From contig NZ_CSTE01000001.1 of the NCBI RefSeq assembly GCF_001368915.1, forward strand, positions 1 to 64,000: 64,000 nucleotides of DNA, given 5' to 3'. This DNA comes from Haloferax massiliensis. GTDB lineage: Archaea > Halobacteriota > Halobacteria > Halobacteriales > Haloferacaceae. The translations under genes and the position numbers were made by a program. This document shows, in pieces, positions 36,317 to 40,162 of the stretch (its first letter is position 1; each line of letters begins with the position of its first letter). A model generated the notes under the pieces. It was not told the origin of the DNA. It ran no database searches and saw only the letters and a program-made list of their open reading frames with translations.

Positions 36317-36595
36317 TCAGCCCCCCGCGACCGGCGGGAAGACGCTCACGGCGTCCCCGTCGTCGAGCGTCGTGGCCATCCCGTCGAGGTGAACCACCTC
36401 GCGCCCGTTTTTCAGCACGTTCACGTGCGGTTTGACCTCGCCGTCTTCGATGAGTCGCCCGGCGAGGCCGTCGTACTCCGCTTCCAGCGACCGGAGGACG
36501 TCGCCGACCGTCGCGTCGTCGTCGACCCGCCACGAGATGGACTTCTGGCCGACCACCTCCCGAAACGTCGCAAAGAAGCGCAATTCGAGTTCCAT
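36317..36595 (-). CDS. samp3: SAMP3, small archaeal ubiquitin-like modifier protein
   Basis: 92 residues from the ATG at 36595 (MELELRFFATFREVVGQKSI), ending SVFPPVAGG. It is a beta-grasp fold of the MoaD/ThiS type with the C-terminal Gly-Gly required for adenylation by the E1-like UbaA. It matches H. volcanii SAMP3 as recalled. It is conjugated to lysines, including on the molybdopterin synthase subunit MoaE, and cleaved by JAMM proteases. First gene of a three-gene operon. The upstream ATG at 36766 adds sequence without coding signal. Confidence 0.95.
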   Translation of the reverse strand: MELELRFFATFREVVGQKSISWRVDDDATVGDVLRSLEAEYDGLAGRLIEDGEVKPHVNVLKNGREVVHLDGMATTLDDGDAVSVFPPVAGG

Positions 36596-36864
36596 ACCCC
36601 TTTTCGGCGTCCCCGAGACAAAAAGGTACGTCGCGGAGGCGCGAGGAAATCCAAGCATCGTCACCGGAGACAGAAATGCATATAAATCACAATTATGGTG
36701 TCGGGACGTTCTCAACCAACTAAGTCGTTCGGGCCGAGAAACGTTTCGGAAAAACGCACTTCTCAAACGGCTTTGATACCGATTCGGGGTGAATCGAGGC
36801 GAGATGGTCGGTCCGTTCGGCGACGGTCGGCCCGTCCCGAGTTGGTGCCGAGCGGGCCGCCCGA

Positions 36865-37065
36865 TTACCGTCCCGCGTCGCGGACTTCGATGCGGCCGAC
36901 GGACTCGACGGTGACGACGAGGTCGGCGTAGTCGAATTCGAGCGACGCGCCCGATACGCGCGGCGCACCGGGCGTGTCGCAGCCGAACAGGGCGTCGAGG
37001 GCGTCGGTGTCTACGTGCTCTGTGAGCGGCGGTAACTCCGCGTCGCGGCGGGTGTGTTCGTTCAC
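36865..37065 (-). CDS. ddfA: HalOD1-domain protein (probable DdfA-type shape regulator), 5' end unclear
   Basis: The GTG at 37065 gives 66 residues (MNEHTRRDAELPPLTEHVDT to GRIEVRDAGR). The same frame stays open upstream to a TAG at 37231-37233. It encodes typical HalOD1 N-terminal sequence: LRDEFEPTRVWYDCERTEPV, then SEAVVAAV. There is no ATG, GTG or TTG in that upstream part. In-frame ATA (37198-37200), preceded by GAGGAGAC, or ATC (37162-37167) stand where a start would be expected. HalOD1 is a haloarchaeal output domain. By position between samp3 and sph3 this is the H. volcanii disk-determining factor gene ddfA as I recall it. It may be start-lost, use an unusual initiator, or be expressed as the short form. 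Confidence 0.55.
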   Translation of the reverse strand: MNEHTRRDAELPPLTEHVDTDALDALFGCDTPGAPRVSGASLEFDYADLVVTVESVGRIEVRDAGR

Positions 37066-37520
37066 GGCCGCGACGACCGCCTCAGAGACGGGCTCGGTAC
37101 GCTCGCAGTCGTACCAAACCCGTGTCGGTTCGAACTCGTCTCGGAGCTGCGTGTCAGATTTGATGATAGCTTCGTCCCCCCAGTATCGTCTGTTCGATAT
37201 GTCTCCTCTATCTGTTATATTTCTTGCGTACTATCGGTATGTGCCCGCGATGGTGATAAAATAGCACAATACTAAAATTCGGGAGACGGTACTGAACGGT
37301 TCGAGCGGGGCGAATCACCGAGGCGGTCGAGCCGAGGGAGCGGTCGAAACGGTCACGGGACACGTCGCCGCGAGTCTATCGCGCCCGCTGTCTGTGTCAC
37401 GCCGCTCCTGTCGCAGGATGGGGTTCGACGGGAACCGAGCGAGACGCAGTCGGACGGGAGCAAAACGAAGCGGAGACGCGGAACGCGGCGCGGACTGCCC
37501 GCGGTCACGGTCCGGTGGGG
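37066..37520. other. 455-nt region between sph3 and the HalOD1 gene
   Basis: The first ~135 nt (37066-37200) appear to be the unassigned 5' coding part of the HalOD1 gene. The stretch 37190-37290 is AT-rich for this genome and, on the minus strand, has GCTATTTTATCACC, a plausible promoter for the HalOD1 gene. The remainder up to sph3 has no supported gene. Confidence 0.5.
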
Positions 37521-39482
37521 TCAGGCGGTCGGCGTCACGTCGGTGCCCCACGTGACGCGACGGTACGACGCGTCGAGGGCCTGGGCGTCCTCCGGGAGGA
37601 GCGCCGCGACGAGGAACGTCGAGTACTGCTCGAAGTGGTCGACCAGCGCGGCGATGCGCTCGGCGTCGATGGCCTCGACCGAGTCGAGGAGCATGAACGG
37701 GACGGTCTCGTACACCTCGTGGACGAGGTAGCCCGCGAGGGCGAACACGAGGCCGACGACCTCGCGCTCGCTCTCGCTGAGGTGGTCGATGGAGTCCTCG
37801 TACACCGCGCCGGAGTCCGACGCGCGGACGATGTGGAGTTCGAACTGGGTCTTGTCGACCTTGCGACGGCCCTCGCGGACCCGGCGTTCGACCCGCTCCA
37901 GCCAGACGCGCTCGATGTTGTCGTAGCCGAGGAGACCGAGCACCGTCTCCATCTCCTCGTTGAACGACTCGACCGCCGCGGTCGTGAGCGAGCGGATTCG
38001 GGTCCGCGCGGTTTCGAGTTCCTCGTCCACCTGCGCGCGTTCGGTTTCGAGTTCCTCGCGCTCGTCGAACCGGGCGTCGAGCGCGTCGAGGTCGTCGTGA
38101 ACGGACGCGAGTTCGTCGCGCTTCCGGTCGAGCGCGAACTCGACCTCGTTGAGCTCCTTGTGGAGTTCGATGAGGTTCCCCTCGGCCTGTCCGCGGAGGT
38201 CCGACGCGTCGGCTTCGAGCGCTTCGACCCGCTCGGCGAGCTCCTCGCGCCGCTCGGTCAGCGACTCGATCTGCCCGGTCCGGCGGTCGAGTTCGTCTTC
38301 GAGTCGCCGGAGCTTGTCGCGGAGGTTCCGGCGGTCGCGCTCGGCCCGTTCGGCGGCCCGCATCGACCGTTCGAGTTCGTCGAGTTCGCGGCGGAGTTCG
38401 GCGCGCTCCTCGCGTTTTTCGTCTCTGACCTCGCGGAGGCGGTCGGTCGTCCCCCGAATCTGGTCGCGGTCGACCTCGGTGCCGCAGGTCCAGCAGGTGG
38501 TGGTCTCCGACGAGACGAGCCGGTCGGTCACCGAGCCGTCGCCGCCGACCCGGCCGAGCGAGTCCTCGACGAGGTCGGCCTTCCCGTCGAGCACGTCCTC
38601 CGTGTACTGGACGACGGTCTGGAGCTCCGAAATCGTCGAGTTGAGCGACTCGATGCGCGACCGAATCGACTCGATGCGGTCGCTCGCCTCGCCGGGGTCG
38701 ACCGCCTCGGCGTCGAACGAATCGAGCTCCGTCTGTAGCTCGCCGCGCTCCTCGCGGAGCGATTCGACGCTCTCGCGCTCGCTTTGCAGGCGGAAGCGGA
38801 CGGTTTCGAGGTCCGACCGCGCCGACTGGAGATCGGACAGCACCTCGTCCAACGCCGCCTGATTCTCGCGCTGGGTCTCGACCGTCCGGTCTTCGGCCTC
38901 GATTTCGGCTTCGAGGTCGTCGCGCTCGGCTTCGAACTCCTCGATTTCGGCTTCGAGGTCGTCGCGTTTCGATTCGAGCGACCGCCGGTCGGCTTCGAGC
39001 GAGTCGAGCGAGTCGAGTCGCGTTTCGACCTGCGAGCGCCGCGACCGGAGACGCTCGATTTCGGCCTCGATGGCCTCGGTGTCGACCGGGGCCATGATGA
39101 CGTCGTGGAGGTCGCGCTCGGCGACGACCGCCCGACGCGCCTCGTTCGAGCCGAGGAGGAACGCAAAGCGGTCCGCCGTCGTCGTGTCTCGCAGGTACGG
39201 CGTCCCGTCGGTCGAGACCGTACCGTTCTCGCGCGAGAGGATGCGGGTGTACGTCCGGCCGTCGAGTTCGAGTTCGACCGTCCCCTCGTCGGCGTCGCCC
39301 TTGAGACTGACCGCGTCGCTCCCGCACGCTCCCATGAGCGCGCGAAGGAAGGACGTTCGGTTCGTCGCGTTGCGGCCGGTGAGAACGGTGACGCCGGGGT
39401 CGAGTCTGACGGTCCGCTCGTCGATACCGCCGATGTTTCGTATGCGGACAGTCGCTGCCTGAAGTGCCTCTGAATCGTTCAT
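37521..39482 (-). CDS. sph3: Sph3, archaea-specific SMC-related ATPase
   Basis: 653 residues from the ATG at 39482 (MNDSEALQAATVRIRNIGG). An N-terminal ABC half has a divergent Walker A, TGRNATNRTSFLRAL, where the usual GxGKS/T reads NATNRTS. Two long coiled coils (about 150-290 and 350-500) surround a hinge with a single TTCWTCGTEVD. The C-terminal half has the signature LSESEREVVGLVFALAGYL and the Walker B-like FMLLDSVEAIDAER. This is the haloarchaeal SMC-like family partnered with RdfA. In H. volcanii Sph3 is implicated in rod shape (recalled). It is co-transcribed with rdfA (35-nt gap). Confidence 0.93.
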   Translation of the reverse strand: MNDSEALQAATVRIRNIGGIDERTVRLDPGVTVLTGRNATNRTSFLRALMGACGSDAVSLKGDADEGTVELELDGRTYTRILSRENGTVSTDGTPYLRDTTTADRFAFLLGSNEARRAVVAERDLHDVIMAPVDTEAIEAEIERLRSRRSQVETRLDSLDSLEADRRSLESKRDDLEAEIEEFEAERDDLEAEIEAEDRTVETQRENQAALDEVLSDLQSARSDLETVRFRLQSERESVESLREERGELQTELDSFDAEAVDPGEASDRIESIRSRIESLNSTISELQTVVQYTEDVLDGKADLVEDSLGRVGGDGSVTDRLVSSETTTCWTCGTEVDRDQIRGTTDRLREVRDEKREERAELRRELDELERSMRAAERAERDRRNLRDKLRRLEDELDRRTGQIESLTERREELAERVEALEADASDLRGQAEGNLIELHKELNEVEFALDRKRDELASVHDDLDALDARFDEREELETERAQVDEELETARTRIRSLTTAAVESFNEEMETVLGLLGYDNIERVWLERVERRVREGRRKVDKTQFELHIVRASDSGAVYEDSIDHLSESEREVVGLVFALAGYLVHEVYETVPFMLLDSVEAIDAERIAALVDHFEQYSTFLVAALLPEDAQALDASYRRVTWGTDVTPTA

Positions 39483-39517
39483 GTGTCGGATGTTGGTGTG
39501 TTGGAGAGCCCGAACCG

Positions 39518-40162
39518 CTACTCGTCTCCGTCGTGGTCGCAGTCGCAGTGCCCGGATGAGAGGAGCGCCGTCGGGGTCATTCGCGTGTCGCAGTCGGTAC
39601 AGGTGACTCTGATGTCGACTTCGACCTCGTACGCGCCGATGAAGACCTCCTCGGCCTTCACTAGGCGGTCGATAACGTCGATAGTCACGGTGCGAAGTCG
39701 GGACCGGAGCTTTCGAACCGTCGCGAGTCCCGACTCGGTCGCATCCGTCTCGTCGTCGGTGTCGTCGCGTTCGACGTTTCGGTGTCGCTTGAGGTAGTTG
39801 TACACCGACTGGTAGGAGATGATGTCGGCCTCTAACTGCTCGACATCGACGCCGCGCTCGCGGAGCGTGTTCCGCGCGTCGGTGCGGCTCCCCGCGGTCA
39901 CGTCGTCGCTCGTCAGGAGTCGGTAGAAGTTCTCCGCCTCCCCTTCGAGGACGTGCGCGCCGGCCTCGTCGAGCGCGGCCCGGACGAGTCGCTCGTTCAC
40001 GTCGCCTTCCAGTTCGCGGAGGCTCCGTTGTGGTCGCCCCTCGCCGAGCCACGCGTCGACGAGGTCGTCGCCGAGGCCGTCGAGCCCGTACCGGTCCGCG
40101 ATGCGTTCTATCTTCGGACCTCGGCCGCCGCGGCGGGATACCGTCCTTCCAGAGTCTCGCAT
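39518..40162 (-). CDS. rdfA: RdfA, rod-determining factor
   Basis: 214 residues. The N-terminal helical domain has PKIERIADRYGLDGLGDDLVDAWLGEG and LRELEGDVNERLVRAALDEAG. The central LRERGVDVEQLEADIISYQSVYNYL is followed by VTIDVIDRLVKAEEVFIGAYEV. A C-terminal zinc-ribbon-like motif is CTDCDTRMTPTALLSSGHCDCDHDGDE. It matches the RdfA family, whose member at this locus in H. volcanii is required for rod formation (from memory). It is cytoplasmic and likely acts with Sph3. Two palindromes lie in its upstream region. Confidence 0.92.
   Translation of the reverse strand: MRDSGRTVSRRGGRGPKIERIADRYGLDGLGDDLVDAWLGEGRPQRSLRELEGDVNERLVRAALDEAGAHVLEGEAENFYRLLTSDDVTAGSRTDARNTLRERGVDVEQLEADIISYQSVYNYLKRHRNVERDDTDDETDATESGLATVRKLRSRLRTVTIDVIDRLVKAEEVFIGAYEVEVDIRVTCTDCDTRMTPTALLSSGHCDCDHDGDE

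Follow-up and report, generated by a model that had tools for sequence, protein, structure and literature searches.

The ddfA locus of Haloferax massiliensis

We analysed a stretch of 64,000 nucleotides from the Haloferax massiliensis genome (the window). On its minus strand we observed an open frame at 36865-37230, which runs for 121 open codons (37230 to 36868), ends in a stop codon at 36867-36865 and is preceded by a TAG at 37233-37231. Residues 45-117 of this frame match the HalOD1 domain (PF18545; 36880-37098, minus strand; 64 bits against a cut-off of 26.3), and the frame also matches the NCBIfam DdfA model NF053557 (84.5 bits against a cut-off of 70). The two genes by which membership of the DdfA neighbourhood was judged were both found upstream on the same strand. 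These are sph3 at 37521-39494, for an archaea-specific SMC-related protein (NF045487, 678 bits), and rdfA at 39518-40162, for rod-determining factor A (PF21811, 233 bits). At all the Haloferax loci checked, sph3 adjoins ddfA. The downstream neighbour (36317-36607, minus strand) is a gene for the SAMP1 ubiquitin-like small modifier (NF041918). Because of the HalOD1 and DdfA model matches together with the sph3 and rdfA neighbours, we conclude that this HalOD1 gene is ddfA, disk-determining factor A, and the name that a preliminary description of this DNA had given to the locus is borne out.

The DdfA model (NF053557, an equivalog) has up to 19 matches listed per haloarchaeal genome, many of them above the cut-off, and the proteins that it names DdfA are probably often just HalOD1 paralogues. 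As the model is too broad, we rejected it as a proof of orthology.

The start of this gene has been a puzzle before. Schiller et al. 2024 (PMC10869688) reported that the annotation of H. volcanii ddfA (HVO_2176) is too short and that the gene lacks a traditional start codon; GGG was suggested from Ribo-seq, and the in vivo start was left open. When the H. volcanii ddfA deletion was complemented from a plasmid, the gene as annotated failed, whereas an extended form with an added ATG complemented (PMC10869688). The requirement of ddfA for disk formation has been shown in H. volcanii only (PMC10869688), and later proteomics was again without detection of DdfA (PMC12240190). The gene examined here is the same gene, with the same rdfA-sph3-ddfA neighbourhood and likewise no traditional start. 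In contrast to the GGG suggested there, our comparison of 14 species points to AUC/AUU. The puzzle itself is thus already published, and what we propose as new, from sequence comparison, is an AUY start (Y being C or U).

Absence of a canonical start codon

The ddfA frame reaches its first canonical start codon (ATG, GTG or TTG) with a GTG at 37065-37063 (minus strand), which is codon 56 and lies within HalOD1. This confirms the earlier report that the frame has none of these codons before the internal GTG. In the window and 6 of its 7 closest relatives, the interval from the TATA box to the conserved WYDC motif contains no ATG, GTG or TTG in any frame, and the sole canonical codon of the seventh in this interval is an out-of-frame TTG. 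Seven species lack a canonical start in every frame from the TATA box to WYDC. Two species do have one in frame, namely H. marinum, with an ATG five codons (15 nt) before the ATC codon described below, and H. mucosum, with a GTG three codons (9 nt) before it; these species may use their own upstream ATG or GTG as start. The H. marinum ATG (L056, 2950-2970) lies about 30 nt past the TATA box and is possibly a regained canonical start.

The missing canonical start is therefore the state of most of the genus, and no start loss peculiar to the window strain. A sequencing or assembly error, which had been named as a possible refutation, is ruled out, since the pattern is common to 14 independent genomes. 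We also considered a frameshift or transcriptional slippage at the run of six G residues from a start further upstream, and rejected it since neither the window nor most of its close relatives has a canonical start there in any of the frames.

A conserved ATC/ATT codon

Orthologues of ddfA were found in 14 of 15 Haloferax genomes, a set drawn from outside the volcanii group. We made a MAFFT alignment of the DNA upstream of the 14 orthologues and followed the WYDC reading frame through it. We observed that the codon at 37167-37165 (minus strand) is ATC in 12 of the 14 species and ATT in the other two. It is the sole column that is near-cognate to ATG in 14/14 species; the runner-up, the column of the internal GTG, reaches 10/14. 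The chance of one all-near-cognate column is about 2.5e-4 when six divergent lineages and 42 columns are counted (with 8 of the 14 species being close relatives, the sample amounts in effect to about six lineages). The residue encoded by ATY is also the sole invariant position of an otherwise variable 14-residue N-terminus, which extends until TRxWYDC. Although the stretch from ATC to WYDC is two codons shorter in H. marinum, MAFFT aligns its ATC with the ATY of the other species. Measured from the end of the TATA box, ATY stands at 45 nt in 12 species, H. marinum with its shorter stretch among them, and at 44 nt in the other two, H. elongans and H. larsenii.

Stop codons limit how far upstream the start could lie. 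In genome G004 there is an in-frame TAA eight codons upstream of its ATT, and the start in this genome can therefore be no further up than this TAA. Upstream in-frame stops are also present in H. denitrificans, H. elongans, H. larsenii, H. marinum and genome G013. To judge from these sequences, the start of ddfA must be close to the ATY codon. Among the eight close species, variable sites fall in the third codon position in 19 of 30 cases downstream of ATY and in 6 of 19 upstream, a weak difference from few sites (Fisher P = 0.04).

The only Haloferax genome of the 15 without a ddfA orthologue at E <= 1e-12 was G005, an assembly of 720 contigs; this absence may be either a real loss or an assembly gap. 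In G004 (L015), an AUGUGA, that is a start followed immediately by a stop, stands directly before the AUU (GGGGGGATGTGATATT), and termination-reinitiation might occur there.

The nearest homologues beyond Haloferax (about 36-43% identity) have a normal ATG, which aligns within two codons of ATY. This position is evidence independent of the conservation within Haloferax, with the orthology of these homologues not being certain. In a genus of the same family (g47; L071, L075, L076, L078, L083 and L085) we saw closely DdfA-like proteins that carry the motif DWDRREPVS and have normal ATG starts, and no sph3 was found within about 1.5 kb of these g47 genes.

Promoter, leader and G-run

Upstream of the conserved codon lies a BRE/TATA-like promoter block, GTACGCAAGAAATATAACA (37213-37231, minus strand), which is nearly invariant and is present as a single copy in the genome. 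Going by the position of the TATA box, transcription would be expected to start about 22-27 nt downstream, at 37186-37194 (minus strand). A leaderless AUC was considered and rejected, as the TATA box, about 45 nt away, is too distant for the mRNA to begin with this codon.

A run of six G residues (GGGGGG; 37176-37181, minus strand) ends 8 nt before the ATC, and we propose it as a Shine-Dalgarno-like element. For the pairing with the anti-Shine-Dalgarno we used the 16S 3' end AUCACCUCCU (PMC7531240). The predicted pairing of the G-run with AUCACCUCCU ends 4-7 nt before ATY in 14/14 species, and its mean energy is -9.6 kcal/mol, against -6.4 kcal/mol for shuffled leaders. About 4% of random 20-mers of the GC-rich window reach -9.3 kcal/mol, and for this reason we take the pairing energy as supportive only; the constant place of the pairing does more for the argument. 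We read the G-run as a putative ribosome-binding element and AUY as the probable start. Against this reading, a review (PMC7531240) mentions one test in H. volcanii in which the Shine-Dalgarno sequence was non-functional.

Taken together, codon conservation, fixed spacing, the lack of alternatives in most species and the match to the outgroup ATG are the sequence features that point to the ATY codon. We propose, with a probability of roughly three in four, that Haloferax ddfA starts at this genus-conserved near-cognate AUC (AUU in two species) at 37167-37165. The coding sequence as proposed would be 36865-37167 (minus strand), with an AUC start, 100 amino acids and a TAA stop (beginning IIKSDTQLRDEFEPTRVWYDCERTEPVSEAV).

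Other candidate start codons

We evaluated translation from a conserved GGG at 37179-37177 (minus strand), four codons before ATY, in which case the isoleucine would be residue 5. This is the codon type suggested by Ribo-seq in H. volcanii (PMC10869688), and GGG stands at this column in 13 of the 14 species. However, GGG matches AUG at the third base only, it lies within the G-run that is able to pair with the anti-Shine-Dalgarno at a normal spacing from ATY, the codons from GGG to ATY vary without codon structure, and the outgroup ATGs align with ATY and not with GGG. Nor could we reconcile the published H. volcanii offsets (126 nt, 18 nt and GGG at -6; PMC10869688) with a single position in the relatives compared. 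Counting 126 nt back from the internal GTG leads to codon 14 of the frame, which is GGA in 6 of the 8 close species, but the conserved GGG is codon 18. If the GGG of the Ribo-seq study is the same as the conserved one, it lies in the G-run. We read the GGG here as a part of the G-run, and consider it improbable as the start codon.

It is just as improbable, in our judgement, that the start near the G-run, weak or canonical, differs from species to species and that the isoleucine codon is kept for protein function only. The H. marinum ATG (in frame, at -15 nt) and the H. mucosum GTG (at -9 nt) would agree with such starts. The seven species without a canonical start in any frame would not, and H. 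marinum and H. mucosum retain ATY despite their upstream starts.

A short protein from the internal GTG (37063-37065, minus strand) is what automatic annotation would call, this being the first canonical start of the frame, and a short form had also been considered in the preliminary description. We find it very unlikely. The GTG is present in only 9 of the 14 species, it cuts into HalOD1, the residues TRxWYDC upstream of it are conserved, and the H. volcanii form as annotated fails to complement where the extended form works (PMC10869688). The structure predicted from ten sequences for the 100-residue form was of poor quality (mean pLDDT 53), and we gave no weight to its helix at residues 27-38, which a GTG start would cut.

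The preliminary description had itself pointed to an ATA at 37200-37198 (minus strand), one transition away from ATG. This codon is indeed preceded by GAGGAGAC and followed by S-N-R-R, but a recent loss of an ATG there, with initiation at the ATA, is hardly credible. Five close relatives have GTA at this position, so that the ATA is not conserved in the orthologue alignment; in G004 and H. marinum, in-frame stops lie between it and the gene; among the aligned sequences, GAGGAGAC is peculiar to the window; and the codon is probably upstream of the transcript start. Non-canonical initiation as such is very probable; the codon we favour is the ATC/ATT eleven codons downstream of the ATA.

A model for initiation at AUC/AUU

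If ddfA starts at the AUY codon, transcription from the conserved TATA block in H. massiliensis would leave about 20 nt of leader ahead of it, and the G-run, 6-8 nt upstream, would pair with the anti-Shine-Dalgarno and set AUY in the P site. The initiator Met-tRNAi would then initiate at AUY despite the third-position mismatch, a decoding that we infer by analogy, and yield a 100-residue protein with the whole HalOD1 domain. Such a weak start may keep DdfA scarce. This would fit with DdfA escaping mass spectrometry, for which low abundance has other possible causes as well. Counting against the AUY start, UUG gave no detectable activity and GUG gave little in a haloarchaeal reporter with a short leader (PMC4574771).

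The level of DdfA may be set by the stringency of initiation (aIF1 in archaea), in the way that IF3 acts on infC and sigR in bacteria; that aIF1 or the growth phase controls ddfA is a guess. A more tentative extension, which we consider doubtful on balance, is that AUY acts as a translational gate, with initiation stringency (through aIF1 or a growth-phase change) holding DdfA low in rods and releasing it for the density-dependent switch to disks. We know of no earlier archaeal counterpart of the infC/sigR type of control.

Parallels are known from bacteria. The infC gene starts at AUU or AUC and sigR at GUC or GUU, and IF3 sets the level of both (PMC5472188). The AUY start of infC (AUU in E. 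coli, AUC in Streptomyces) is like the one proposed for ddfA, and the C/T exchange at the third base among the ddfA relatives is of the same kind as the variation in infC and sigR. The infC gene differs in being a bacterial translation factor gene, for which IF3 feedback is known. Streptomyces sigR (PMC5472188), a regulatory gene, would resemble ddfA in that its non-canonical start is conserved across the genus, its ribosome-binding site is conserved as well and gene finders misannotate it. The sigR start, however, was proven by mutation and Western blot and is IF3-repressed, whereas that of the archaeal ddfA is a prediction. Within the haloarchaea, Srinivasan et al. 2006, as cited in PMC4574771, described GUC initiation in Halobacterium salinarum. 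It would be similar to ddfA as a case of non-canonical haloarchaeal initiation, and different in that, going by this citation, the mRNA was leaderless, while ddfA would have a natural, genus-conserved AUY with a leader.

The AUC/AUU proposal names one specific codon as the place where ddfA begins, a question to which those who discovered the gene gave no final answer. The model archaeon H. volcanii needs ddfA for disk formation and for its response to a secreted density signal. If the proposal is true, archaea retain AUC/AUU as a natural start across a whole genus, such genes are misannotated by gene finders, and the fidelity of initiation becomes a candidate control point of archaeal cell shape.

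With regard to transcription, we also observed that nine bases of the promoter block (GTACGCAAG) are invariant in the 14 species. This exceeds the apparent need of a BRE/TATA element, and the block may include the site of a regulator.
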